IMG/VR virus record: IMGVR_UViG_3300035162_002523
Span: 1 to 27,808 of that record
Origin: a virus
Direction: 5' to 3' (one strand)
DNA length: 27,808 bases
Positions 2,469 through 27,808 of the stretch are shown here, piece after piece. Under the pieces are notes generated by a model. The model saw only the letters and a list, made by a program, of their open reading frames with translations. It had not been told where the DNA came from and did not search any database. Position numbers and translations under genes: made by a program. Within the stretch, counting starts at the first letter, position 1. Every line of letters starts with the position of its first letter.

Positions 2469-4355
2469 ATGGGAACTAAAACACCTTATGGTATGACCGT
2501 CACTGGTCAAAGCGGCACTTCTTATAGTCCCGGTATGCTCTCTGGTTTAACAAACAGATACAACAGCATTGGAGACGCTGGCGGTATTATGGCTCAAGAT
2601 ACGGGAAAACCCGAGCCAGAAGGAATCCCAGTTGTAAAAGCATTACAACCTACTGGCTTGCCCGCTGCTAACCTCGGTCTCACTTTTGGAGGGGCTGATC
2701 CCAATTTTCGAATGTCGGGGGTTAGTGACTATAGCGAAGGTCAAAGCGCTTATGATGCCATAGTCGCTGCTTCCGCAGCTATAGACACTCCGGGTGAGTT
2801 CCTAGAAGCGGCCTACAATGCTCAGGCGGGTGCGGAGACAGCGTATCAAAATAGGTCAAGGGCGTGGGCGGCTGAAGAGGAAGCTAAAGACAATCTCTAC
2901 AATGCAGAACAAAATGGTACTCCTGCTGAAATCGCCAGTGCTCGTAGTGTGCTTGTCTCGGCACAAAATAATGTAGAGACCGCAAACCAAGCACTTAGTA
3001 ACGCTCAAACCCTGCGTACATCTTCCTATGCGGCGGTTGAAGCTAATGTACCAAAGGGTTTTGCCAGAGACTATGCTACCCAAACCAACCAAACCCCGTT
3101 GCCGTATACCCGCACCATCCTCGATAATGTTACAGATGAGGTTCTTGGGGGGATAGGAAGTCTTGCAGGTGGCTTGTATCGTGGCGCTCATGCGGTCGGC
3201 TCTAACCTACCAGTAGTCGGGGGTTATGTAGGGGATGCTATAGAAGGCGCTGGAGAGTGGTTTCAAACAACGCCGGGAGTTATAGCGGGAAGCCCCTCAG
3301 GTGTTCAAGGACAATGGGGGTCGATCCCGCCTTGGATGCAGACGAGCCAAGTTAATGTCTTAGGCCAAATACCCGGCAGTGCTACTAATGTTGGCACTAT
3401 GACGGGCACTATTCTTGACACCCTCAACGCTGTTCGTAACGGACAAATAACGTTAGCTGAAGCCGTTGAAAAAGACGCAGCGGGACTCGCTGGGGCTATG
3501 GGTGTTAGTGTGGCGGTGCTCCAAACCGCAGTTTTTGCGGGTAAAACTCTACAGGACATTGCTACAGACAGAGATGCAGCCGCCGTAGCCCTAGCAGCGG
3601 ACGAAAACGAAGGGGGCATTACGGTAGGTGGGGTAAGCCTCGACGGCAACGTAGCCACCGAGATAGTAGAAGGAAACACTGCCGCTAAAGCTGCGGAGAA
3701 ACTACTTGCTGACCAACAAGCTGCTTTAGCCAAAGCTACAGAAGTCTTTGACACTGCGGGAGGTGGGGCAGCGGGTACAACAGCGGTGCTTGAAGCACTG
3801 GAGGCCAATGGCTTAACTGTTCAAGACCTAGCTACCCAAACTGGCATTTCTTTAGACGACTTAAACACCTTTATAGGGGCCAACACGGCGGCGGCCACCG
3901 ACGACGAAACAACTACAACTAATGATGAAATAACTAATGATGAAATAACTAATGATGAAATAACTAATGATGAAATAACTAATGATGAAATAACTAATGA
4001 TGAAATAACTAATGATGAAATAACTAATGATGAAATAACTAATGATGAAATAATTAATGATGAAATAACTGATGATGAAGTACCGGGGCTAAGCGAAGTA
4101 CTTGCCCTTCCCGACACCCCCGAGCAAATAATTGGTCAAGGTGGTATGCGTACAATAAGCACAGAGAAAGCAGGCGTTGCGGACATTGCCGCTCTTTATA
4201 ACCCAGCTCTGTCCCTTGCTGAGAACATGGCGATCTTAAGGGGCGGTAAAGCAAAAGAGGAAGACATTGTGGATAGTGCGATATATTACGGTGGTGGTAT
4301 GATACAAAACACTGATATGACTGACGAAATAAACCGTCTGTTACGGGGATACTAA
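2469..4355 (+). CDS. Ala-rich virion-associated protein with NDEIT tandem repeats
   Basis: A 628-residue protein starting 9 bases after the previous stop, with AGG-containing purine-rich sequence just upstream. Residues of about 85-180 are Ala/Glu/Gln-rich and should form long helices or a coiled coil. A Gly-rich stretch near 220-260 ('GGIGSLAGGLYRGAHAVG') could contact membrane. Residues of about 480-540 are eleven copies of an acidic pentapeptide, TNDEI and variants, encoded by the 15-base repeat at 3918-4082. The C-terminal 90 residues are non-repetitive and end in 'INRLLRGY'. Two short stretches look like small helical modules ('LAGAMGVSVAVLQ' and 'LATQTGISLDDLNTFI'), and similar ones occur in the next protein. 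No enzyme motif is visible. The setting suggests an internal or tail-associated structural protein; I do not recognise the family. Confidence 0.7.
   Translation: MGTKTPYGMTVTGQSGTSYSPGMLSGLTNRYNSIGDAGGIMAQDTGKPEPEGIPVVKALQPTGLPAANLGLTFGGADPNFRMSGVSDYSEGQSAYDAIVAASAAIDTPGEFLEAAYNAQAGAETAYQNRSRAWAAEEEAKDNLYNAEQNGTPAEIASARSVLVSAQNNVETANQALSNAQTLRTSSYAAVEANVPKGFARDYATQTNQTPLPYTRTILDNVTDEVLGGIGSLAGGLYRGAHAVGSNLPVVGGYVGDAIEGAGEWFQTTPGVIAGSPSGVQGQWGSIPPWMQTSQVNVLGQIPGSATNVGTMTGTILDTLNAVRNGQITLAEAVEKDAAGLAGAMGVSVAVLQTAVFAGKTLQDIATDRDAAAVALAADENEGGITVGGVSLDGNVATEIVEGNTAAKAAEKLLADQQAALAKATEVFDTAGGGAAGTTAVLEALEANGLTVQDLATQTGISLDDLNTFIGANTAAATDDETTTTNDEITNDEITNDEITNDEITNDEITNDEITNDEITNDEITNDEIINDEITDDEVPGLSEVLALPDTPEQIIGQGGMRTISTEKAGVADIAALYNPALSLAENMAILRGGKAKEEDIVDSAIYYGGGMIQNTDMTDEINRLLRGY
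3918..4082 (+). repeat. 15-bp in-frame tandem repeat, 11 units
   Basis: The unit is act-aat-gat-gaa-ata (TNDEI). Units 1-9 are identical at the base level. Unit 10 starts with att instead of act (INDEI), and unit 11 is act-gat-gat-gaa-gta (TDDEV). Because the unit is a multiple of three, gain or loss of units keeps the gene in frame. Near-perfect identity, including synonymous positions, points to recent slippage or recombination. There are no spacers, so this is not a CRISPR array. Confidence 0.97.
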
Positions 4356-9468: not shown

Positions 9469-12400
9469 GTGGCTAAAGCTCCTTGGGAAGAAGATTGGGA
9501 GGTACAAACCGCTACGAGTCCTTCTAAAGCCCCTTGGGAAATAGATTGGACCGCCGAAGAAGTTGCTCCTACCCAGCAAGAACAAAATAACCTAGCCCCT
9601 TGGGAACAAAATTGGGACCAAAAAACTCCTGCGCCTGTTATCCCTGCGCCCGTTACGCCCGCACCTGAAGTAGAAGGCAACCTTCTGCGTGAGACTTTAG
9701 ACATCCCGTTAAAACTCGGAAGTGGTGTGCTTACTGGCACCAAGATGGTCACTGATATATTCGGTGCGGATAATGCGGTGTCTAGTGGGTTGGGTGCTGC
9801 TGAAGAATGGTTAAGCAACTTAGTCTCCGCACAATCCAAAGCTGACTCAGCAGAAATCGCTCGGATAATGCAAGAAGCGGAAGACCTAGGGTTTATGGGT
9901 CAAGCCAAAGCCGCCTTGAATGCCCTCACCGTAGCGCCCATAGACTTCTTAGCACAAGGTGTTGGTACGTTTGTACCCGCTATAGCTGCGGCTATTGGTG
10001 GTGGAGCTGTTGGTGTAGGTGCTTACGGTGTGTCGTCGGGTGTCGGGCTTATTAAGGACACCATATACGATGCTGTACGCGAAGAATTAGTAAAGTCAGG
10101 TAAGTCAGAAGAAGAGGCAGAAGCAGCCGCTACAGAAGCGCAGTCTTACACTGGCGAAAATATAGACATGATCGTAGCGGGAGGAGGCCTTGGTTACTTG
10201 GCTTCCCGTTTTGGTGTGCCTGAAGCTTTCATAAAGGGAAAACTTGGGCAGCGTTTAATTGAAAAGTTCGGGCAAGAAGGCTCGAAAGGTATCCTGAGAG
10301 AAATAGGTAAAGGTGCAGTAAGAGAAGGAATACCTGAGGCGATGCAGGCGGGGCAAGAAAAGTTTGCAGGTAACTTAGCGCTAGCTAGAGAAGGGTTTGA
10401 CGTGCCTTTGGGCCGAGGAGTTTCTGGTCAAGCAGTCCTAGAGGGTGTTATTGGTGGAATACTTGGTGGGGGCATGAGCACCATTGAGACAAGGGCGGCT
10501 GACAAACTAAGCGGAACTTCCGTGGATGGAGTGCTTACTCCCGAGCAAGAACAAGAACGAGATGAGCTAGCTAGTCAAGTAGAGGCAGCGACTGCCGAGG
10601 CAGCGGGACAAAAAGCAGCTAGGGTGCAAACTTATGTGGACGAAGGTATGTCCCCGGAAGAGGCGCAGGAAGCTGAAGGAATCGAAGCTAACGTACAAGC
10701 GGAGGTTCGAAAGCAAGATGCCCAGAAGGAAGTCATTGACCAAGAAGCCCAATATGAAGAGGAAGATCGAGCTGAAGTAATAGCGTTAGCACAGGAATCT
10801 TTTAACACCTCTCCTGAAAGAAACGAGGCAGTAGACGAGCAGCAAGCAAACGTTGCACAGGAGTATGGACCTGAACTCGCCGCCTTGTATGAAAGCACTT
10901 ATGCCTCTCTTGCTAGGGGCATAGTAGCCCCTGCCGCTGAGGTAGCCGCTGAGGTAGCCCCTGAGGTAGCCCTTGAGGGCGATGCTGATCAGCAAATAGA
11001 TTTTGTAGCCGAAGAAGCAGCCGTAGACGGGCAAGAAGAAATAGTTGTGGAGGAAGCTGACCCTGATGCGGATGTCATTAAGTTTATTACAGATACCGGC
11101 ACAACTGCACTTAGTAAAATAAAAACCCAGTTTAAGTTAACTACAGCTAAAGCAAATGAACTTGCTCTTCGCTTAGAAACTAAAGAAGTCCTGTCGAAAA
11201 AAGGACCGGGTGGAAGGCGTACCGTTGGCCCGGCGATAGCTGTGGAAAGTGTGCCAACGCAGGTAAACCCGAGAAGCGAAGCTGGGCAGGACTTTAAAAC
11301 CGAGAGTGACGCAAGGGGTAAGAAATTTAATCAAGAAATTACTCAAGCGGAAAAAGCAGTAACGGACTCAAGCGTTGAGAGTATGCAAGAAGTGCGTAAG
11401 CAATATGGGTTTGAGAACGAAGAAGACTACGAAAACATTATAGACGACGATAAGCGAAGAAGCTTAGTTCAAGCAAAGACTGAAGAGAACTACGCGGCGC
11501 TCGTAAAGGAAGAAGGGTTTGCCCCCGAAGTAACTCCAGAAGTGGCTTCAGACGCAACTCCCAAGGACAAAAAAGTATCTCGCCTAGCTGTTATAGCCGC
11601 TTCAAACGCTCCAAAAATTGCACCAGAGAAAGCTGCTGAGCTACGGGAAAAAGCGGAGAGCCAAGCAAACACAGAAGTTAATGCCTCACTTAAAAAAGGG
11701 CGAATGGTTGAAGCTAAACTTTCCAAGAAAAAGGATGCTCTTGAAAACGCGTTAGGCAATTTGTGGGTAGCACAAAATAACCGAGACAATCGTAGTTATG
11801 CCGCGCGACAAACTAAAGCCGCTAAAGTTCTTGACAACTTAACTCCAGAGCAAAAAGTAATAGCCGAAGAAAAAGGTAAAGAAAAACTTAAAGCCATTGG
11901 CTTACAAGGAAGTAAAAGAAAAGTAGTCCGAAGTGTACGGTCCGACCGCTTAGACGGCATAACCGATCAAAACTATAATGACTCTTACCGATCCGCTAAG
12001 ACTACTACCGAGCTGTTAGATAAAATAATTGCAACGGGGAATAGGTTCGAAAAGTTTCTTGCTCGTAGGTTAAAGCCTTTAGTAAAAGACGTTAAACTAA
12101 TTATTGGTTTCCAGCCAACGCAAATGTTTATAGAGCAAATTAGTGGCGTTGCTCCTCCGATCAATCCAGCAAATCCAAGACAAAAGCAATTCGGTTACCT
12201 CCAAGAAAACCCAGAGGGGCAACGAGGTAATTATAGCGCACTCCCAGATTGGCTAAACGAAACTATGTGGGAGGAAGAATCACAAGGTCTCTACTTCCCG
12301 AGCAGGAACACCGTATTTTTAAACACTACCAGAATGTACGAGGGCGACGACAGCGCAGAAGGACTAAACAACACTACTATTTTGCATGAGTTTATACATG

Positions 12401-15400
12401 CTGCGACTGTAAACGTCCTTTTTGAGTTCGATCTTCGCGGCGGAAAAAATAAAACTAACCCTAGGGCTACTCAGGCAATAGAGGATATAAGAACTCTTAT
12501 GTCCGAAGCGCAAGAAACTTACTTTCGTAGGATGGAAGGTGGGCTTAGGGATGGCATAGAAACCTTAGCCGAAAGGGTAGATATTTTTAACGACATATAC
12601 GAGTTTGTTGCTTACGGTTTAACTGAACCTTCGTTTCAAGAATTTTTGACCAAGGTCACACCTGACTTAAACCAGCAGTCTAAGGCGAGCGTTAACAGTT
12701 TGCGAAATGCTTTAGGTAAGTTCTTAAACTCTATCCGAGAAATACTGGGACTTGCCCCTAGTGAATTTAATGGCTTTGTAGTTCTAACCGACCTTACCGG
12801 AACACTACTAGAAGAAAACCCAGATAGCCCACGCATTAGCGCTGCGGATATAAAACGGGCAGTTGCTAAGACTAAGAGAGCAAGTGCTGCTGCGGAGAAA
12901 GTAGCTAAGAGCCAAGATGCAAAAGGGTTGTTGCGTAATATGTTCTCCGCTGTAACCGAGATTCGAGATGTTGAGGGAGCGGTTAATTTTTTAAAGGGAA
13001 CCTACGACAGCATAGATTCAAATCGTCTAAGGGCGATGTTAGGAGCCTATACCACTGATGGAATCAACAGAGTTTTTGGTGACAAGGTAAAGCTAAATGA
13101 AATTGATTCTAAGGTTGAAGCTTTAAACATCACAAGAGGGCAGCGCCTAAAAGAATTGGCAGAGAAAATTCCCGGTTGGCAAGAGTTTAACGGTTTGTAC
13201 GAAGAAGGTGCGGGCCTACTCGCTGACATAATGTCGTTAGCTACCCTGAACAACTTTGATCCTTTGCTACACAAGGATAAGGCCGCTGCACTAAAGAACG
13301 ATGCCGAGCTAAACCTTAAGAAAAAAGCACTTGCGCGTGCTCAAAGAAACCCCAACAGCACCAAAGGAACCATTAATTATCGAAAGGGTAGGGTTACCGG
13401 CAGAGAGAAAGTAATCAAAGAGTTTTATGACGGTGCAATTATAAAGGGAGAGCGTGTAGCAGGATGGGATCGTTTGCAAGAAGAAGCAAACGGCGGGCAA
13501 CGTGGTGTTGAAATATTCAGAATGGCTAGGGACAGCTACCGACAGACCCTAGAAGATACCTATGCCATTTTAAGAAAGAAGATTGAGAACTCCGAAATTA
13601 AACAAGAGGCTAAAGATGAGCTGCTAAAAACTATTGCGGATCGACTTAAAGCCTCTAAAGTTTTGCAAGTATACTTTCCTTTGATGAGGTATGGAGAATT
13701 TTGGCTGCGGGTAGGTAAAGGCCAAAGAAGAGAATTCTACATGTTCGAGTCGGAACTAGAGCGGAATCTATTCGCTAGAGAACGTGCTAAGGAAGTAGCT
13801 CCTTCAAAAGATTTCACAAAGGCACTCGAAGACGAAGACGTACAAGTTGGTAAGAACACTGGTGATAACCAATTCCGCCAAGAAATGGAAGGCTCTAGCG
13901 AAGCACTTAAAACAGTGTTCGATTTAATAGACGATAAGGCGCTGTCTAAAGAAGACGTGCAGATTATTAAAGACAATGTATATCAAATGTACTTGATGAC
14001 TCTATCCAGTTCAGACATGCGTAGAAAGTTTGTTCATCGTAAGGGTGTTACAGGCTTTAGTAAGGACGCACTACGTAACTTCGTTGTTACCCAGCATACG
14101 AGCGCAAACCAACTTGCTAGGCTGGAGTACACCGACGATATACGTAACGCAATCGAAACTGCTAAAAAACAATTAGACGGAAACCCAGAAAAAGACAAGC
14201 TGCTAATAGTAGTTGACGAAATAGCAACGCGTGCTATGAAAGAAGTGAACCCCCCGGAGCGCACTGAGGGGGTTAACTGGGATGCCGTTGCAGGTTTGGG
14301 GAACAAAGCTGTTTTCTATTGGCTACTGAGTGCTCCTAAGTCTGCTTTAGTGCAGCTTACTCAGTTACCGATTGTAGGGTTGCCCGTATTATCCGCTGAG
14401 TTTAAGAACGCCGACGTAGCCGGAATGGTTGCAAGATACACAAAGATGATGCTAACCGGCGAGAGCATGGCAGAGTACACCGAAGATGAAAACGGTGTAG
14501 GCAAAACCAACTGGCTTAGTAAACCTTCTATTAGCGACAGCAAGTACATCCAGCAAAGTCCCATACGTGCAGCATTAGAAGAAGCCTTTGCACATGCCGC
14601 AGAGCGAGAGCTGTTTATGCAGACTTACGCATCTGATTTAACTGGGCAGGGGAAAGTGAGTACCCGAGAATTTAGTGGTGCTCCGAGCAAAGTTTTCCGT
14701 AACGTCGCTAATTTTATGAGCGGTGGGTTCCATCATTTAGAACGTATAAACCGAGAGGTTATGTTCATGTCTAGTTTTGAGCTAGCTTATGCAGAAGCTG
14801 TAGCTCAAAAATTAAGTCCTGAGGAAGCCCAGAAGGTAGCCCAAGAGCGAGCGATGAAGCTTACTTACGCTGGGCTGTTTAACTACTCAAACTATAATAA
14901 GCCTCGGTACATGACAGCCAATGCTCCGATGAAAATGGCTACTCAGTTTATGACCTTCCCTATGCAAATGACTTCTTACCTTGTAAGGAACTTCTTTAAA
15001 ATGCTGCCCTTTGTGAACAAAGAGGGTAAGGCGGCAGCGGCGACTCAGTTCTTCGGCACTATGGGGATGACGTTCTTGTTTGCAGGCGCTACTGGGCTGC
15101 CCCTGTACACAGCCATGATGGGCTTGATGGAAGGGATTAGAGAGGCAAACCGTCCAGATGAAGACGATGAGGACGCTGACTTCTTATACGACATAGACGC
15201 GGCGGGTAATCCAATGGGTATGCGGAACATGGACATTTGGTTCCGACAATCTTTTATACCTCGGTACTTCGGTGAAGGCAGTAGTCTTGCTGACTTCTTA
15301 GGGCTTTCTCCAGAGCAAGCTGCCGCATTAGCTTTATCCGTAGAGATGGGACCAATATCTGCACTTACTGGGCTTAACATTGGTGCTTCGACTAGCTTAG

Positions 15401-16053
15401 ATGGGATGTGGTTCCGCGATGATGGGAATAAGGATAACTCTGAGGATGCCCTAGTAAACTTCACTTATAATACAACCCTTGGCCCCTTTGGCAGCATAGC
15501 TAGAAGCGCAAGCCGAGCATTGGACGATTTTAAAGACGGGGACTATGGGAGAGCTGCCGAAAACGCTTTGCCCGCTATGTTTAGAAACATTGCTAAGACG
15601 ATACGCTTGTACGAGGAAGGACTCGTTACTAGGCAAGGAAATGTAGTTGCTGATGCTGAGTACTACACAACCTTTAAACTATTTGGTCAAGCTCTGGGCT
15701 TGTCCGATACAGAAGTCGCTACGGACCAAGAGTTTAACTTTCAAGCAAAGAACATGGTTACCGATATGCAAACGGAACGCGGGGACTTGCTAAACGATTT
15801 AGATAAGGCAGTTCTTGAGTACCAAAAAAGTGACGTAAACGACCCTAATGCTTATGACGGGATACAAGAAGTACAAGACGAAATAGTTAAGTTTAACTAC
15901 CGTAATCCTTGGATGCTCATTAAGGCTAGCACTCAGCGTGCTTCTTTAAAAGGAAGGGCTGAACGTCGAGGAAATTCAAGCCAAGGGTTGAACGTAACCA
16001 AGGAACTAGAGAAGTACGTCTTTCCACTAAGAGAAGACTTCCGTAACCGCTAA
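9469..16053 (+). CDS. Giant polyvalent virion protein with metalloprotease motif and PLxRFG-type region
   Basis: A 2194-residue protein with a GTG start 2 bases after the previous stop and 'gggaagag' upstream. Three APWExxW-type repeats lie at residues 4-10, 21-27 and 43-49. A hydrophobic Gly/Ala-rich segment follows (about 154-200), then a long Glu/Ala-rich coiled region. Residues 535-586 resemble an FtsK-gamma winged helix ('DVIKFITDTGTTALSKIKTQ...'). HEFIH at 973-977, with Glu at 1045 in 'YEFVAYGL', fits a gluzincin-type zinc protease. 'PLMRYG' at 1404-1409 matches the PLxRFG signature of very large phage proteins. The C-terminal part (about 1614-1645, 1821-1848 and 1865-1888) is hydrophobic and resembles large polyvalent protein-associated regions such as LPD38. 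Its position last in the virion run suggests an internal or ejected protein. Motifs are visible; family names are from memory and role is inferred. Confidence 0.8.
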   Translation: MAKAPWEEDWEVQTATSPSKAPWEIDWTAEEVAPTQQEQNNLAPWEQNWDQKTPAPVIPAPVTPAPEVEGNLLRETLDIPLKLGSGVLTGTKMVTDIFGADNAVSSGLGAAEEWLSNLVSAQSKADSAEIARIMQEAEDLGFMGQAKAALNALTVAPIDFLAQGVGTFVPAIAAAIGGGAVGVGAYGVSSGVGLIKDTIYDAVREELVKSGKSEEEAEAAATEAQSYTGENIDMIVAGGGLGYLASRFGVPEAFIKGKLGQRLIEKFGQEGSKGILREIGKGAVREGIPEAMQAGQEKFAGNLALAREGFDVPLGRGVSGQAVLEGVIGGILGGGMSTIETRAADKLSGTSVDGVLTPEQEQERDELASQVEAATAEAAGQKAARVQTYVDEGMSPEEAQEAEGIEANVQAEVRKQDAQKEVIDQEAQYEEEDRAEVIALAQESFNTSPERNEAVDEQQANVAQEYGPELAALYESTYASLARGIVAPAAEVAAEVAPEVALEGDADQQIDFVAEEAAVDGQEEIVVEEADPDADVIKFITDTGTTALSKIKTQFKLTTAKANELALRLETKEVLSKKGPGGRRTVGPAIAVESVPTQVNPRSEAGQDFKTESDARGKKFNQEITQAEKAVTDSSVESMQEVRKQYGFENEEDYENIIDDDKRRSLVQAKTEENYAALVKEEGFAPEVTPEVASDATPKDKKVSRLAVIAASNAPKIAPEKAAELREKAESQANTEVNASLKKGRMVEAKLSKKKDALENALGNLWVAQNNRDNRSYAARQTKAAKVLDNLTPEQKVIAEEKGKEKLKAIGLQGSKRKVVRSVRSDRLDGITDQNYNDSYRSAKTTTELLDKIIATGNRFEKFLARRLKPLVKDVKLIIGFQPTQMFIEQISGVAPPINPANPRQKQFGYLQENPEGQRGNYSALPDWLNETMWEEESQGLYFPSRNTVFLNTTRMYEGDDSAEGLNNTTILHEFIHAATVNVLFEFDLRGGKNKTNPRATQAIEDIRTLMSEAQETYFRRMEGGLRDGIETLAERVDIFNDIYEFVAYGLTEPSFQEFLTKVTPDLNQQSKASVNSLRNALGKFLNSIREILGLAPSEFNGFVVLTDLTGTLLEENPDSPRISAADIKRAVAKTKRASAAAEKVAKSQDAKGLLRNMFSAVTEIRDVEGAVNFLKGTYDSIDSNRLRAMLGAYTTDGINRVFGDKVKLNEIDSKVEALNITRGQRLKELAEKIPGWQEFNGLYEEGAGLLADIMSLATLNNFDPLLHKDKAAALKNDAELNLKKKALARAQRNPNSTKGTINYRKGRVTGREKVIKEFYDGAIIKGERVAGWDRLQEEANGGQRGVEIFRMARDSYRQTLEDTYAILRKKIENSEIKQEAKDELLKTIADRLKASKVLQVYFPLMRYGEFWLRVGKGQRREFYMFESELERNLFARERAKEVAPSKDFTKALEDEDVQVGKNTGDNQFRQEMEGSSEALKTVFDLIDDKALSKEDVQIIKDNVYQMYLMTLSSSDMRRKFVHRKGVTGFSKDALRNFVVTQHTSANQLARLEYTDDIRNAIETAKKQLDGNPEKDKLLIVVDEIATRAMKEVNPPERTEGVNWDAVAGLGNKAVFYWLLSAPKSALVQLTQLPIVGLPVLSAEFKNADVAGMVARYTKMMLTGESMAEYTEDENGVGKTNWLSKPSISDSKYIQQSPIRAALEEAFAHAAERELFMQTYASDLTGQGKVSTREFSGAPSKVFRNVANFMSGGFHHLERINREVMFMSSFELAYAEAVAQKLSPEEAQKVAQERAMKLTYAGLFNYSNYNKPRYMTANAPMKMATQFMTFPMQMTSYLVRNFFKMLPFVNKEGKAAAATQFFGTMGMTFLFAGATGLPLYTAMMGLMEGIREANRPDEDDEDADFLYDIDAAGNPMGMRNMDIWFRQSFIPRYFGEGSSLADFLGLSPEQAAALALSVEMGPISALTGLNIGASTSLDGMWFRDDGNKDNSEDALVNFTYNTTLGPFGSIARSASRALDDFKDGDYGRAAENALPAMFRNIAKTIRLYEEGLVTRQGNVVADAEYYTTFKLFGQALGLSDTEVATDQEFNFQAKNMVTDMQTERGDLLNDLDKAVLEYQKSDVNDPNAYDGIQEVQDEIVKFNYRNPWMLIKASTQRASLKGRAERRGNSSQGLNVTKELEKYVFPLREDFRNR

Positions 16054-22655: not shown

Positions 22656-23387
22656 CTAATATTTTAAGTATTCGTGTATTTCTCTTCCATTAAATACGGT
22701 AGGTCGCCAATCAGTACGGAACTTATTGCTCTTGCCCATGTTGCACTCTTCGCAAAGTACTTGAAGGTTGCCAAAACTCAGTGCTAATTTAGGCTCGTGC
22801 GACTTAGGCACTATGTGGTCTACATGCACCGATACTCCATGTTCTTTGTAGCTCCTGCCGCAAGCCGCACACGTTGCTTTATAGGCTTCCAAAACTTGCA
22901 TCCGTAAGGTTTGCCATTCCCTCCGTATCTCTAAGTTGTTGTTCCAGTTCGGGTGTACTACATCTTCACGATCAATACACCGCCAATGAAATCTTTTCAT
23001 CTCGCCAATTACTTCGTTGGGGTGTACACCGTTGGCAACCCTCCACTGTACCTGCTCAAAAATATCCCACTGCCAGTATTCAATAGGCTTGTGGCTGCCT
23101 ATAAGTTTGTGGGTAAATCCTTTTGTCGGCTCTGCGTTAAACATCGCTCGGTATAAATCTTTTAGCAAAGCTAAATGGACCATAGAGTATTGAGGAGAGC
23201 CGGGGCTTTTTAAAGTATGGATTAGCGGTTCACTTAGAAAGGTACGCATGTCCGCAAACCAAGCACGACAAATCTTGGGATCATCTCCGTGCCCTTTTGA
23301 CCACCAATCTACGTTACACCTCGGAGCGTCACGCCTATCGTACTCCATGAAAAGGTTTATAGTATTGGGGTCACGTACATTACGCAT
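22656..23387 (-). CDS. HNH endonuclease with uncharacterised N-terminal domain
   Basis: A 243-residue protein whose C-terminal 75 residues are a canonical zinc-supported HNH domain: Cys173 and Cys176 ('CAACG'), 'HVDHIVPKS' at 188-196, Asn207 in 'FGNLQVLC', and Cys212, Cys215 and Asn216 ('CEECN'). The N-terminal 150 residues are Trp-rich ('NVDWWSKG', 'IEYWQWDIFEQVQWRVA', 'FHWRCID') and I do not recognise them. A free-standing homing nuclease usually has a short or different extension. It starts 2 bases after the stop of the Cas4-like nuclease, with AGGAAG upstream, and shares orientation and packing with its neighbours. That suggests a resident replication or packaging nuclease as much as a mobile homing gene. 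Confidence 0.87.
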   Translation of the reverse strand: MRNVRDPNTINLFMEYDRRDAPRCNVDWWSKGHGDDPKICRAWFADMRTFLSEPLIHTLKSPGSPQYSMVHLALLKDLYRAMFNAEPTKGFTHKLIGSHKPIEYWQWDIFEQVQWRVANGVHPNEVIGEMKRFHWRCIDREDVVHPNWNNNLEIRREWQTLRMQVLEAYKATCAACGRSYKEHGVSVHVDHIVPKSHEPKLALSFGNLQVLCEECNMGKSNKFRTDWRPTVFNGREIHEYLKY

Positions 23388-23389
23388 AG

Positions 23390-24058
23390 CTACTTCCTAT
23401 TGTGGGGGCATTTTTTTACGGGGCAATACGCACACAGCGGGCCACTAACTGCATTCCAAACGTCAGACTCTTCCGCACCTGCTAAGCGGTCAAGATCAGG
23501 CTGGAAGGTAGCAAAGTACGACTTGATAAGCTCTCTGTGATGTTCTTTGCGTATGAACTCGTTGCTCACTACATACGCCAGAGCAGACTTAATAGTGTTA
23601 ACTTCGGGGAAGTGTAAGAACGTAGCAGCAGCAAGTGCATCAAGCTGTGCAGTATCCGCATACTTTGCATTCTTACCTGTCTTATAGTCCACCAGAAAAG
23701 CTCTGTCTTCGTGTACGATAACTAGGTCAGCAATTCCTCGCCACCATACTTCCTTCTTTCGGTCGAAGAAAGTGCATGGGGTATACTCCTCTCCGTCGTA
23801 AGAGACACCGAACCTTAGCTCGCAATGTTTTTCTCCCGGGATTTTCTTCAGGGCGTTGAGCGTATCAGTTATAAAGTCAAACTTCTTAGGGATGTCTTCC
23901 CCGTCTTTTATGTACAACTCAGCGGCTTTATGCACCTCGTTGCCATAGCGCATAGCGAAGCTACCCGTATCTTTAACGTCCTTAGCTACCCGCAAGTGGT
24001 AGTACTTCTTGGGGCACTGTTTAAATGTACTTAAGCTGCTATAAGACCAAGCTGTCAT
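23390..24058 (-). CDS. Cas4/RecB-like PD-(D/E)XK nuclease with Cys cluster
   Basis: A 222-residue exonuclease-type protein. PD-(D/E)XK motifs: 'YGNEVHKA' (His43), Glu80, 'RGIADLVIV' (Asp111), 'FLVDYKTGK' (Asp124, Lys126) and Gln138. One Cys near the N-terminus ('FKQCPKKYY', Cys15) and three at the C-terminus ('CAYCPVKKCP', Cys209, Cys212, Cys217) match the four-Cys iron-sulfur arrangement of Cas4 and AddB-like nucleases. No CRISPR array or other cas gene is in the window, so a recombination or resection role is more likely than spacer acquisition. Its ATG overlaps the preceding stop as ATGA. It would process DNA ends together with the nearby SNF2-type ATPase and the ssDNA-binding protein. Confidence 0.9.
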   Translation of the reverse strand: MTAWSYSSLSTFKQCPKKYYHLRVAKDVKDTGSFAMRYGNEVHKAAELYIKDGEDIPKKFDFITDTLNALKKIPGEKHCELRFGVSYDGEEYTPCTFFDRKKEVWWRGIADLVIVHEDRAFLVDYKTGKNAKYADTAQLDALAAATFLHFPEVNTIKSALAYVVSNEFIRKEHHRELIKSYFATFQPDLDRLAGAEESDVWNAVSGPLCAYCPVKKCPHNRK

Positions 24059-24237
24059 TTTGTTTTCCGTTTATCAGGTAATACTCTCAGTTTCTTTTCC
24101 CAAACAGCGTTATCTTTTCTAACTTCAACGACACTCTCGCCGTAAGCATAGGTTCTTATTACGCCACCCCTAGCTAAATAATTTCGGATGTCTTGTGCTA
24201 CCTTCTCGCGCTGTAATTCTTTCTCGTTTTTCACCAT
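24055..24237 (-). CDS. Small charged protein (60 aa), unknown
   Basis: A 60-residue basic protein: an N-terminal helix ('EKELQREKVAQDIRNYLARGG') and a short beta part ('VIRTYAYGESVVEV', 'WEKKLRVLP'). The composition is that of a real small soluble domain. It overlaps the next gene by ATGA, and its own ATG overlaps the stop of an 11-codon ORF as TAATG. Function unknown. Its place in a continuous coupled chain is the main support. Confidence 0.6.
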   Translation of the reverse strand: MVKNEKELQREKVAQDIRNYLARGGVIRTYAYGESVVEVRKDNAVWEKKLRVLPDKRKTK

Positions 24238-24272
24238 TAGTTAGTGCCTGTGTAGAATTCTCTCGTGTTCAT
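24237..24272 (-). CDS. Possible 11-codon micro-ORF (MNTREFYTGTN)
   Basis: An ATG at 24272 overlaps the stop of the 22-residue TM ORF (ATGA), and its TAA overlaps the ATG of the 60-residue gene (TAATG). It exactly bridges the two genes. It may be a real peptide or only a ribosome relay that carries translation to the next gene. There is no good ribosome site of its own. Confidence 0.3.
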   Translation of the reverse strand: MNTREFYTGTN

Positions 24273-24337
24273 GAAGTCATCACTATGACTATGGTTACGG
24301 CGGCTATGCAAGCTAGGGATACTAGTAGTAGGGTCAT
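24269..24337 (-). CDS. 22-residue single-TM micropeptide
   Basis: Encodes MTLLLVSLACIAAVTIVIVMTS, almost entirely hydrophobic and long enough to span a membrane once, with no charged residue. The ATG overlaps the TGA of the 102-residue TM protein (ATGA). It is preceded by a GGAG ribosome site about 8-9 bases upstream ('ccggagaaaacacaatg'). Its stop overlaps the next start. The exact overlap geometry plus ribosome site argue that it is translated. It could be a small holin-like or inhibitor peptide, or an accessory of the TM protein; no family is recognised. Confidence 0.5.
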   Translation of the reverse strand: MTLLLVSLACIAAVTIVIVMTS

Positions 24338-24642
24338 TGTGTTTTCTCCGGCGTAGCTTCAAAGTAGTGCAGCATAATTTCTGGCGAACACTCGATAGTA
24401 AGTGTCACAGTCTGTCGGTCTACTCGATAGCTAAACTCAGGTTCTTGCCGTAGCGTTGAACACTTCTGTCCGTTAAAGTCGAACGCCGGTTTTTCTAAGA
24501 CTACGGCAGGCGGGTTTTGTGCAAACAGTACACCCAACGCTACCACCAAAGCTAAGGCTATCACCCCAACCACAACCAGTGCCGACACTGCACCCCTGTA
24601 CTTATCTTTCCAATACTTTGTTGATGCGCTTAGTTCAGTCAT
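24334..24642 (-). CDS. Single-TM small membrane protein (102 aa)
   Basis: A 102-residue protein with a short charged N-terminus ('ASTKYWKDKYRG'), one strong TM helix at about 19-41 and a C-terminal domain of about 60 residues containing two cysteines (61 and 85). Positive charges before the TM predict N-in, with the C-domain outside the cytoplasm, where the two Cys could pair. I chose the ATG at 24642 because it overlaps the stop of the preceding 19-codon TM ORF (ATGA). The longer frame, to 24774, would run through the end of the zinc-ribbon gene with an implausible Lys/Asn/Ser-rich leader. With no lysis gene visible elsewhere in the window it is a candidate holin- or spanin-like protein, but this is only inference. 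Confidence 0.6.
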   Translation of the reverse strand: MTELSASTKYWKDKYRGAVSALVVVGVIALALVVALGVLFAQNPPAVVLEKPAFDFNGQKCSTLRQEPEFSYRVDRQTVTLTIECSPEIMLHYFEATPEKTQ

Positions 24643-24698
24643 ACCAACCACCCCACTACCAAGAAAGCTCCGTATATTGCTATTGCTATTAGTATCAT
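24639..24698 (-). CDS. 19-residue single-TM micropeptide
   Basis: Encodes MILIAIAIYGAFLVVGWLV, wholly hydrophobic. A very good ribosome site (GGGAGGTGGGG, ending one base before the ATG) precedes it. Its ATG overlaps the TGA of the zinc-ribbon gene, and its TGA overlaps the ATG of the 102-residue TM protein. Both junctions are ATGA. This is stronger support than for most ORFs of this size. Function unknown; a membrane partner or regulator of the next protein is the simplest guess. Confidence 0.52.
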   Translation of the reverse strand: MILIAIAIYGAFLVVGWLV

Positions 24699-24904
24699 TC
24701 CCCACCTCCCGCTTTAATTGTTGGCTGTTTTGTAACTTTAGGTATAACTGTTTCTCTAAGGATAGCTTCTTCAAAGTAATAACACTTTAAGCAGTACCAC
24801 CCCACTCGCTTCTGTGTCTGCATGTTAAGCACTTGCTCAGAAGTTTCTTTGCACTTAGGGCATACGTTAGTACTCAGATCACCTGTAGCGTGGGGTAAGC
24901 TCAT
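24695..24904 (-). CDS. Small zinc-ribbon protein (69 aa)
   Basis: A 69-residue protein with two CxxC knuckles: 'CPKC' at about 15-18 and 'CLKC' at about 38-41, the spacing of a zinc ribbon. The tail is disordered and Lys/Gly-rich. The ATG overlaps the preceding stop (TAATG) and has GGGAGG about 11 bases upstream. Small zinc ribbons are common in phage accessory regions and often act on nucleic acid or host enzymes; the target here cannot be told. Confidence 0.7.
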   Translation of the reverse strand: MSLPHATGDLSTNVCPKCKETSEQVLNMQTQKRVGWYCLKCYYFEEAILRETVIPKVTKQPTIKAGGGE

Positions 24905-25182
24905 TAGTGCAGTGCCTCCCTTGATTTAAAAGCCTGCATTATTAGCATGTTCAGCATCCAAAAACATGGGCCGTCCATCACTAAGCAGTCTTCGCCTTTA
25001 TGTTTCCCCTGATTTAAGTATTTAATAACTTCTTCTTCGCCCACGTCTTGTAATAACTGGTGGCCTTCAAGCAGCATCCTAAAGTTTACCACCTCGTAAC
25101 TTGTACCCGTTTCAGCTTCTAGCTTATCTGCTAGCGCAATAGCGTTCTCTACGCCGTGGATAACTTGGGTGCTATGTTTCAT
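24904..25182 (-). CDS. Hypothetical protein (92 aa)
   Basis: A 92-residue, mostly helical acidic protein. Its helix 'NAIALADKLEAETG' is followed by 'EVVNFRMLLEGHQLLQDVGE', and a C-terminal hydrophobic helix ('FWMLNMLIMQAF') looks like a buried or interface helix, not a TM segment. No motif is recognised. It starts inside the end of the 43-codon ORF (11-base overlap), and its stop overlaps the next ATG (TAATG). It is real by composition and packing; function unknown. Confidence 0.6.
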   Translation of the reverse strand: MKHSTQVIHGVENAIALADKLEAETGTSYEVVNFRMLLEGHQLLQDVGEEEVIKYLNQGKHKGEDCLVMDGPCFWMLNMLIMQAFKSREALH

Positions 25183-25303
25183 CTAGCAAAGCCTCAAGGC
25201 GCGTCTCTAACTTTTCTAGCCGAGCAACAACATCCAACAGTTGTTGGCCTAGCTCTATCACTTCTTCGCCGTCTTCTTCGCTAAGCTCAATTACTACTTT
25301 CAT
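25172..25303 (-). CDS. Small coiled-coil protein (43 aa)
   Basis: A 43-residue protein: 'MKVVIELSEEDGEEVIELGQ' followed by 'LLDVVARLEKLETRLEALL'. The second half has leucines and valines in a clear heptad pattern, so it should form a short coiled-coil dimer or bind a helix of another protein. The ATG overlaps the stop of the preceding 46-codon ORF (ATGA), and the end overlaps the 92-residue gene by 11 bases. Function unknown. Confidence 0.55.
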   Translation of the reverse strand: MKVVIELSEEDGEEVIELGQQLLDVVARLEKLETRLEALLDET

Positions 25304-25440
25304 TCAACATCCCACGTAGACATAGCTTCGTCTGCTGCACGTTCAGCCATCTCTTGCCTACGCTCCGCAGGGTCTACGTAATCTTCTTCTTGTGTGTTTA
25401 GGTACTCTTCTAGCTCTACCGTTACTCTATCTCTACTCAT
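25300..25440 (-). CDS. Small acidic protein (46 aa)
   Basis: A 46-residue, highly charged, helical protein ('MSRDRVTVELEEYLNTQEED' then an Arg/Glu/Ala-rich helix ending 'STWDVE'). It has a strong AAGGAG ribosome site 7 bases before the ATG that overlaps the stop of the upstream zinc-finger gene. Its stop overlaps the next ATG (ATGA). It begins the long coupled chain. Function unknown. Confidence 0.6.
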   Translation of the reverse strand: MSRDRVTVELEEYLNTQEEDYVDPAERRQEMAERAADEAMSTWDVE

Positions 25441-25451
25441 TGTTATTCTCC

Positions 25452-25691
25452 TTATAGATCGTGTTTAATTATAAACTCAGCAAAATTTTGTAGTTCTTTA
25501 GGCGACGAACACTTTTTTTTCATAGGGCTTTGGCATACGGGACACTTAACGTTCCGGACTACCTCCGCTCGGGCATAGTTAGGTGCGTTTGCGTTAACAT
25601 TTTTAACATGTCCACATTCCAAATAAAGAAACCAACAAGGCCTATGTTGAGTCACGCTAACCGGCTGATACTCTCGCTCAATTACTTTCAT
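25452..25691 (-). CDS. Small zinc-finger protein (79 aa)
   Basis: A 79-residue protein with 'ECGHVKNV' (Cys26, His28) and 'KCPVC' (Cys50, Cys53), a zinc-binding set of the type seen in small phage proteins ('L.CGH ... R.KC..C'). The C-terminus is Lys/Cys-rich, then helical. I prefer the ATG at 25691, which has GGAGAGG five bases upstream. A TTG at 25703 would place the ribosome site inside the gene. It is the first gene after the non-coding gap and likely starts the small-gene run. Confidence 0.68.
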   Translation of the reverse strand: MKVIEREYQPVSVTQHRPCWFLYLECGHVKNVNANAPNYARAEVVRNVKCPVCQSPMKKKCSSPKELQNFAEFIIKHDL

Positions 25692-25750
25692 GCCCCTCTC
25701 CAATTTTGATGCGCGCTTAAGGTACTTCGATACTCCACCTATTCAGAATT

Positions 25751-25768
25751 CTTACGCACCTTACGCAC
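25751..25768. repeat. Tandem direct repeat, 2 x 9 bp
   Basis: Two perfect adjacent copies of cttacgcac (gtgcgtaag on the minus strand), in the leader of the small-gene run. Confidence 0.8.
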
Positions 25769-25817
25769 GACTAGCTGTCACGTAGCTTCCCCGACGCAGA
25801 CAAGAAACTGGATAGAC

Positions 25818-25835
25818 ATTTACAGTTATGTAAAT
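25818..25835. promoter_or_regulatory. 18-bp perfect inverted repeat, candidate operator
   Basis: ATTTACA-gtta-TGTAAAT: 7-base perfect arms and a 4-base centre. The size and AT-rich arms suit a dimeric HTH repressor such as the 81-residue protein at 19163-19408, or another regulator. It lies about 130 bases upstream of the zinc-finger gene. The dyad is directly visible; the operator role is inference. Confidence 0.5.
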
Positions 25836-25925
25836 ACCTCTTGTTTTCCTTCTGCATTGCGGGTGTTTTTTGCAAGCTACCCACCGCCCGCTGGGGTATT
25901 CGGGGTAAGCAAAGAACCCCCGTAA

Positions 25926-27752
25926 TTAACACTCACCATAAGAGTTAGCGTATCCACCTTCGCAATCTAAGGGTAAGTCCAACGCCCACTCGGGGCGCAC
26001 CTTCATTGAGTCCTCTACGTAAGCCATAGCTTCTTCTACTTCGGCTATGGGGGCTATACACCCTATAGCATCATGCACAGTCATTACAACTTTATAGCGT
26101 TTCGCTACACGTAATAGCTGCTCGCCAATGACTATGCGAGCTAATGCTTGGCAGACGTTCTCTATAACTTTACCGCCGTAAATACGGTTAGGTATAATAG
26201 CGCGGCCTCGTTTAGTGTCGTACACAACCTCTACTCGCCCGTCTTCTTCGTTTCTTTCTTTCCTTAGGTTGGGGTACTTAACGTACAAGCCATTAGGAAG
26301 CTCGATCCCGTTGTCGGTATCTACAACCACAACTCCTTCCTTACCAATCGCTTGGCTTTGCCCTACCATTATGCCTTGAAGCGCACTGCCTGCCTGCTTC
26401 CATAGCTTAGGGATACTGGAGTACGTCTCCCGATACACCCTGATGATCCGGTCACACTCATCTTGCTCTAGCTCTACGCCAAAGGTCTTTAACTGATCCT
26501 TAAACTTAACCGCACCCATGCCGTAACCTGCACCTAAGATTGTAGTTTTACCTACGAACCTTTCCTCCTTGTCTATGTCTTCCGGCGCTTTGTTGTATAT
26601 TGCAGAAGCCATGATCTTGTATACGTCGTCCCCTCGGTCGAATGCCTCTACTAAGGACTCTTCCTCAGCTAACCATGCTAACGTGCGTGCTTCAATCTGC
26701 GATAAGTCGCAGTCAATAAACTTATACCCGTCTGGAGCACATATCGCCTTCTTGAGTATCGAGCCTCGTGGTAAGTTCTGCATGTTGACCTTATCGTCGC
26801 CACCCCACCGCCCTGTGTGTGCTGCGTAATACTTCAGTGGTATAGGGAGTTTGCCCCTTCCACCTATTGCAATAAGCCGCTCTGTGCGAGTCTCGTCTAT
26901 CGTAGACTTTACCCCTAGCCGTGTGGCTACAAGGATTTGAACTAACGGGTTAGCGTGGCTTTGTAATTCCTTAAGCCCTTCGTCTGTCTTAGCAAATGCA
27001 AATGCCTCCTTGCCTGTGCGCAAACTTATCTTAGTGGGAGGTTCTACACCGCACTGTCTAAGAAGCGCAGCAAACTTAGGGTTACTCATTATCTCTGCGC
27101 GATCTACCTTAGCCTTAGACAGCAGCTTCTCTTTGGTATCCCTAATCTTATTAAGGTGCGTGATCAACAGCTCTCGGTCTACCTCAAGTACTGGCTCAGT
27201 AAACATCCTTAGAGTGAGGTCTATTAGGTTTAGCTCTAGCTTAGAAATCTTAGGGGCCAGTACACCGAACAAAGCGTATGTAAGCTCTACGTCATTAATA
27301 CAATACCCACCGTAGGCTTCCATCTCTTCTGGGCTGAAGTCCAACCGCCGCTTGCCTAGGGCATCTAGCACCTCAGTGCCTTTCAATCCCAGTTCGTAAT
27401 GCTGCACCAAAGCCGAAAGGCTACCACCAACTTCTATAGTGTGGATGGCGCGTGCCATGCAAAGTGTATCGGCTATCTTCTTCGGGACTATACCGAAGTG
27501 CCAATTCATTATAGAGAGATCAAACCTTGCGTTGTGCGCAATAGCAGCGGAGTTACTCCAGTCGAAGGAATCCAAAAAGGCTTTTACTTTCTTCTTTGTT
27601 CCTGTGACGAACTTAGTCTCCTCGTTGTTCTTCTTCACCGCTACGCCTATAACCTCAAAGCGCTTGTCACGGATGTACTCCTCAGTAGTGAACTTCCTAA
27701 GGCCAAAGTCTTTTGCATAATAAGTTTCGAAATCAATCGTAAGCATATCCAT
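25926..27752 (-). CDS. polA: DNA polymerase I (family A) with 3'-5' exonuclease, Leu762 type
   Basis: A 608-residue replicative polymerase (numbering from the ATG at 27752). DEDDy exonuclease: 'IDFETYY' (Asp7, Glu9), 'AHNARFD' (Asp78) and 'YCINDVE' (Tyr150, Asp154). Polymerase: motif A 'DLSQIEART' (Asp349, Glu354), O-helix 'RFVGKTTILGAGYGMG' (Arg398, Lys402, Leu406, Tyr410) and motif C 'TVHDAIG' (His560, Asp561). There is no 5'-nuclease domain, as in T7-like phage enzymes. Leu406 corresponds to Phe762 of E. coli Pol I. The frame also opens at ATG 27803 near the window edge. I prefer 27752 because homologous proteins start near the DFE motif and an AGGTG lies 10 bases upstream. ATG 27746 is a further alternative. 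Confidence 0.92.
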   Translation of the reverse strand: MDMLTIDFETYYAKDFGLRKFTTEEYIRDKRFEVIGVAVKKNNEETKFVTGTKKKVKAFLDSFDWSNSAAIAHNARFDLSIMNWHFGIVPKKIADTLCMARAIHTIEVGGSLSALVQHYELGLKGTEVLDALGKRRLDFSPEEMEAYGGYCINDVELTYALFGVLAPKISKLELNLIDLTLRMFTEPVLEVDRELLITHLNKIRDTKEKLLSKAKVDRAEIMSNPKFAALLRQCGVEPPTKISLRTGKEAFAFAKTDEGLKELQSHANPLVQILVATRLGVKSTIDETRTERLIAIGGRGKLPIPLKYYAAHTGRWGGDDKVNMQNLPRGSILKKAICAPDGYKFIDCDLSQIEARTLAWLAEEESLVEAFDRGDDVYKIMASAIYNKAPEDIDKEERFVGKTTILGAGYGMGAVKFKDQLKTFGVELEQDECDRIIRVYRETYSSIPKLWKQAGSALQGIMVGQSQAIGKEGVVVVDTDNGIELPNGLYVKYPNLRKERNEEDGRVEVVYDTKRGRAIIPNRIYGGKVIENVCQALARIVIGEQLLRVAKRYKVVMTVHDAIGCIAPIAEVEEAMAYVEDSMKVRPEWALDLPLDCEGGYANSYGEC

Positions 27753-27762
27753 TTGGGGCTTA

Positions 27763-27799
27763 CACCTGCTGTTTGTCAGGTAGTTGTTGAGAACAACTA
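27763..27799 (-). promoter_or_regulatory. Double dyad in the polymerase leader
   Basis: Read on the minus strand, an 8-base perfect inverted repeat (TAGTTGTT-CTC-AACAACTA, 27799-27781) abuts a second dyad (ACCTG-8 nt-CAGGT, 27781-27764). The second arm of the latter contains most of the AGGTG that is the best ribosome site for the start at 27752. If that start is right, the RNA could hide its own ribosome site. If the start is 27803, both dyads are coding. Confidence 0.45.
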
Positions 27800-27808
27800 T
27801 CATAGTGC

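Follow-up and report, generated by a model that had tools for sequence, protein, structure and literature searches.

The window analysed here, a 27.8 kb virus record (27,808 nucleotides), carries on its minus strand ten ORFs that tile positions 25440-23390 end to end, with nine small ORFs followed by a nuclease gene (Table 1). The chain is flanked by a family A DNA polymerase gene (25926-27803) and by this PD-(D/E)XK nuclease gene, whose product matched PF12705 (E 3.7e-15, 57 bits against a cut-off of 22) and the phrog_69 exonuclease (E 6.8e-23). Six of the nine joints are ATGA, two are TAATG and one is a longer overlap at 25172-25182; thus the stop and start codons share one or four bases on the same strand at 8/9 joints, and ATGA opens eight of the nine downstream starts. 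The initial annotation had listed the same ten ORFs, and the position and length of every one were confirmed, while its count of seven ATGA or TAATG joints was corrected to eight, since the joint at 24055-24058 is itself ATGA. An assembly error is not the cause of the tiling, since L002, the contig nearest to the window, shows a single difference in 3040 bases. The chain begins at 25440, and the preceding gene (25691-25452) is set off from ORF1 by 11 bases. This upstream minus-strand ORF of 79 aa contains a CxxC motif and is related in sequence to short genes in the corresponding interval of relatives.

Table 1. Features of the minus-strand gene array and their positions in the window.
Feature	Position	Strand	Description
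ORF1	25300..25440	-	46 aa, acidic; ATGA joint to ORF2
ORF2	25172..25303	-	43 aa, anchor of the array
ORF2/ORF3 overlap	25172..25182	-	11 bases
ORF3	24904..25182	-	92 aa, optional cassette
ORF4	24695..24904	-	69 aa, zinc-ribbon-like
ORF5	24639..24698	-	19 aa, hydrophobic; candidate leader coupling ORF6
ORF6	24334..24642	-	102 aa, predicted one-helix membrane protein; mobile cassette
ORF7	24269..24337	-	22 aa, hydrophobic microprotein
ORF8	24237..24272	-	11 codons; 3' part a cell-wall-hydrolase gene scar
Scar TTCTACACAGGCACTAACTAATG	24235..24257	-	final codons (FYTG..) of the Hydrolase_2 gene with its stop/start seam
ORF9	24055..24237	-	60 aa, SutA-RBD-like
SutA-RBD-like stretch of ORF9, residues 5-30	24148..24225	-	HMM alignment to SutA
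PD-(D/E)XK (Cas4/RecB-like) nuclease	23390..24058	-	222 codons; closes the chain via ATGA

The longest chain joined strictly by ATGA or xxATG comprised eight ORFs in the window, whereas 3000 dinucleotide-Markov sequences of the same length yielded one to four, and window regions away from the block contained strict chains of only one or two. The suggestion that such perfect tiling is unlikely by chance was thus borne out. Since the whole-chain simulation leaves real genes out of its model, fairer figures come from the gap tests, in which the chance of exact tiling by micro-ORFs was ~0.022 for the gap filled by ORF5 and ~0.0011 for that filled by ORF7 and ORF8.

We then compared the relatives with the window by pooled pN/pS, which was 0.16 for ORF1, 0.27 for ORF2, 0.23 for ORF3, 0.30 for ORF4, 0.47 for ORF6, 0.24 for ORF7 in its own frame, 0.48 for ORF9 and 0.16 for the nuclease. 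These ratios indicate that purifying selection acts on ORF1-4, 6, 7 and 9 and that they encode genuine proteins, several of the micro-ORFs among them, so that this part of the proposal of one translational unit holds. Usable Shine-Dalgarno sites precede ORF1, 3, 4, 5 and 7, which could therefore initiate alone; the anti-Shine-Dalgarno energy was -9.3 for the strong AAGGAG site of ORF1 and -11.6 for the GGGAGG site of ORF5, the strongest of the array. The sites of ORF8 (-0.2), ORF9 (-2.5) and the nuclease (-3.5) are weak, which is suggestive of dependence on coupling. ORF4 carries cysteines in the arrangement C15-x2-C18 ... C38-x2-C41, all four conserved in close relatives, and gave sub-threshold Pfam matches to zinc ribbons.

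ORF5 has no relative in the related contigs beyond the near-identical L002, and a degenerate-pattern search added four hits beyond this virus, on contigs returned by no other search. The case for ORF5 consists of its tiling and its strong Shine-Dalgarno site; we keep this putative ORF as a candidate leader, a short one that probably serves ORF6. ORF6 has relatives in other slots (L083 and L084, 62% identity; L061 and L063, 32%) and two conserved cysteines in its C-terminal domain. Its AlphaFold model, of low confidence (mean pLDDT 52.9), contains only a membrane-type helix at residues 6-42 and was too poor for a fold search. ORF7 retains 20 of its 22 residues in L083 and L084, where it is preceded by ORF6, and the overlapping frame changes more than its own. 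In L003 and L052, a homology block starts one base before the ORF7 ATG. In L083 (2593-2703) and L084 (2877-2987), a 36-residue membrane-type ORF takes the place of ORF8 after ORF7, joined via ATGA. An origin of ORF7 as a hydrolase 5' remnant was also considered and rejected, as the resemblance (SLACIA / SLVCIA) is unconvincing, with codon-shuffle p values of 0.004-0.22 before correction among the eight best of 22 loci.

A nuclease-based search of viral contigs yielded 539 related stretches, of which 80 were used. Gene content varied among relatives even where the nuclease did not. Two loci with 100% identical nucleases lack ORF5-6 (L003) and ORF5-8 (L004), respectively; in L005 (93% identical), ORF3 and ORF5-8 are missing and a gene of 116 residues stands in their place, and L052 (69% identical) lacks ORF3 and ORF5-6. 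ORF1, 2, 4 and 9 and the nuclease are retained in all four, ORF1 also in L026 and L095, while ORF3 is present in L003, L004, L095 and L096 and absent from L005, L052, L026 and L061. Genes thus come and go between close relatives while their neighbours are retained, as in a mosaic. The initial annotation had read the array as one unit of one purpose placed before the nuclease, to be abandoned if small ORFs were lost from relatives that kept the neighbours; such losses were found for ORF3, 5, 6, 7 and 8, and not for ORF1, 2, 4 and 9. The tiling itself stands, but the array is no fixed unit, and a one-function operon is rejected by these losses.

The joints were followed across 43 distinct polymerase-to-nuclease intervals, with gene calling that gave ATGA no bonus. 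Members were found to be swapped like cassettes, while several joints persist with a changed partner. The ORF2 family, present in 39 of the 43 intervals, is entered through ATGA from either upstream partner, namely ORF1 (7/7) or a DUF3310 gene (18/18). Similarly, the nuclease is entered through ATGA from an SNase-like gene (25/26) or from ORF9 (6/9), and a Hydrolase_2 cell-wall hydrolase (PF07486, E 1e-21) overlaps by one base into ORF9 (12/14) or SNase (4/5); Pfam confirmed the DUF3310, SNase and Hydrolase_2 identities. The Hydrolase_2 gene lies just before ORF9 or SNase at L060:3413-3820, at L036:2293-2700 and in ~30 other loci. SNase is the commonest gene before the nuclease, with ORF9 in that place in 9/43 intervals, and ORF6 precedes ORF1 in L061/L063 and SNase in L038. 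In relatives without ORF3, ORF2 runs directly into ORF4 with an 11-base overlap as in the window. The conservation of the overlaps, which had been proposed as a check, was therefore partial: several joints survive a change of partner, but in relatives many neighbouring genes are separated by 0-20 bases, which shows that tight overlap is no requirement.

The 5' edges of homology blocks also tend to fall at gene starts. In seven relatives, ORF2-like homology extends through the next ATG (edge 25179-25180), counted as one site. Of the 17 distinct 5' edges, 11 lie within 12 bases of a start codon, with 2.8 expected, though related loci contribute edges that are not independent of one another; 3' edges showed no clustering at start codons. 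Breakpoints near gene boundaries, a further mark of a mosaic, are thus present at the 5' edges.

ORF8 (MNTREFYTGTN) differs from its neighbours in origin. The sequence TTCTACACAGGCACTAACTAATG, which comprises its last codons and the stop/start, agrees with the hydrolase 3' end and joint at 16-20 of its 23 bases in 14/14 loci, and in each of these the hydrolase 3' end is the unique best match place; L095 has a shorter hydrolase-like tail. On the strength of this match, ORF8 is mostly the scar of a lost cell-wall-hydrolase gene, still serving as the seam of the ORF9 stop/start. The likeness to Hydrolase_2 (PF07486) concerns the 3' end of the gene in relatives, which matches the last codons of ORF8 and the ORF9 seam, whereas the window does not have the catalytic gene in this slot. 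Other genes fill slots of the array in relatives, and most of ORF8 derives from the 3' end of a different gene, both of which speak against the one-unit claim. That an ORF of 11 codons can turn out to be a scar and no gene calls for caution in small-gene catalogues.

We also investigated ORF9, for which a testable function can be proposed: this phage protein may attach to the host RNA polymerase where SutA does. All 21 members of its family matched PF20661 (SutA-RBD) at E up to 0.01 (best 6.8e-10); two relatives scored 37.4 and 32.4, above the curated cut-off of 29.3, whereas ORF9 of the window scored 21.2, below it. The model had no match in 14 control genomes, and a profile of the family retrieved SutA 7f0r_G from the PDB (E 1.1e-4). 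In SutA of Pseudomonas aeruginosa (PDB 7f0r, 7xl3, 7xl4), changes at the interface residues K60, R64, L67, M71, F74, L75, G78, G79, V81 and I84 impair its binding to the beta protrusion of RNA polymerase (PMC9300723). The HMM alignment places K6, R10, V13, I17, Y20, L21, G24, G25, I27 and Y30 of ORF9 at these ten positions, all identical or similar. A helix is predicted at residues 3-22, with high confidence in the middle, as in SutA. ORF9 thus resembles SutA in the RNA polymerase-binding helix, the GG turn and the following stretch, and is predicted to bind the beta protrusion of host RNA polymerase via a SutA-type helix.

However, the SutA-like acidic N-terminal arm is absent from ORF9, where only about four residues precede the binding stretch, and the C-terminal tail has no SutA match. 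Since this arm is essential for activation by SutA (PMC9300723), we infer that ORF9 would not be a second SutA but would bind and, in doing so, compete with or alter host factors. A bolder reading, which we hold tentatively and at somewhat less than even odds, is that the phage family represents SutA binding arms without the activator, proteins of 60-100 residues that would occupy the SutA site on the beta protrusion, block SutA or redirect the polymerase during infection, and travel as a cassette with a stop/start seam preserved through changes of neighbour. No report of a phage SutA-like protein was found in the literature searched, and neither ORF9 nor its best SutA-like relative had a match in isolated phage records. 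Members of the ORF9 family occur in ~40 loci, with weak PHROGs matches to function-unknown groups.

Taken together, we favour, at a probability of about 0.72, the reading that the array is a translationally coupled, modular set of small phage genes, with ORF9 as a predicted host RNA polymerase binder. The block between the DNA polymerase and nuclease genes would be read as one message, and ribosomes ending one gene would restart on the next by termination-reinitiation. An ATGA start would supply the stop codon for any upstream frame arriving in the right phase; because such a start brings the preceding stop codon, start codons could be the points where genes enter, leave or are exchanged, while new neighbours stay tightly joined. 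The array would have no single function, its members being accessory or host-takeover genes. The perfect tiling would thereby be explained without a new system, as a start codon that supplies the preceding stop allows shuffling while the genes remain joined.

Coupling finds its precedent in E. coli, where all but one of the tested pairs with stop/start overlaps were coupled (PMC6728339). The coupled translational unit of the initial annotation may accordingly be kept by analogy as the natural reading, without its single purpose. The array shares the 4- and 1-base ATGA/TAATG overlaps of termination-reinitiation pairs (PMC6728339, PMC10666635), several with a Shine-Dalgarno site inside the upstream gene, but differs in its nine consecutive joints, its micro-ORFs down to 11 codons and its phage setting. 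It also resembles the single-gene mosaicism of tailed phages (mycobacteriophages, PMC3029335) in its single-gene modules, breakpoints near boundaries and small function-unknown genes, and belongs to an established class, the phage mosaics with overlapping genes. Unlike in that mosaicism or in classical morons, the genes lack a promoter or terminator of their own, and joints are common to neighbours. Indeed, a sigma-70-type scan of 23300-26000 found no promoter-like site on the minus strand, the sole site being on the other strand, and minus-strand terminator-like matches there sit inside genes; Rfam detected no known RNA elements.

Three other explanations were weighed against this reading. 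That all ten genes make up a single functional module, with small proteins acting with the nuclease, might seem to follow from the perfect tiling, the invariant ATGA between ORF1 and ORF2 and the intervals in which ORF9 directly precedes the nuclease. This explanation is very improbable, and the ten-gene unit is already largely refuted, as relatives with nearly identical nucleases lack ORF3, 5, 6, 7 and 8, ORF6 changes place, and SNase, not ORF9, most often precedes the nuclease. The overlaps could instead be a by-product of genome compaction, in which deletions trim spacers and coupling plays no role. Phage genomes often contain small overlaps, ORF1, 3, 4, 5 and 7 carry their own Shine-Dalgarno sites, and 0-20 base spacers are frequent in relatives. 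We nevertheless consider compaction by itself unlikely, since a given joint type is found with more than one partner and the Shine-Dalgarno sites of ORF8, ORF9 and the nuclease are weak.

It is also rather improbable that ORF5, ORF7 and ORF8 are leftovers or chance frames between true genes. ORF8 does carry the hydrolase scar, and ORF5, without a relative outside the same virus, had a 2% chance of tiling its gap, but the conservation of ORF7 in two contexts, with its low pN/pS and a more variable overlapping frame, and the far smaller chance of tiling the gap of ORF7 and ORF8 argue against this explanation.

Elsewhere in the window, the plus strand contains a near-perfect 15-base tandem repeat of 10.9 copies at 3917-4079, encoding NDEIT repeats inside a 628-residue ORF. 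On the same strand, opposite to that of the array, a 2194-residue ORF at 9469-16053 perhaps encodes a large virion protein.
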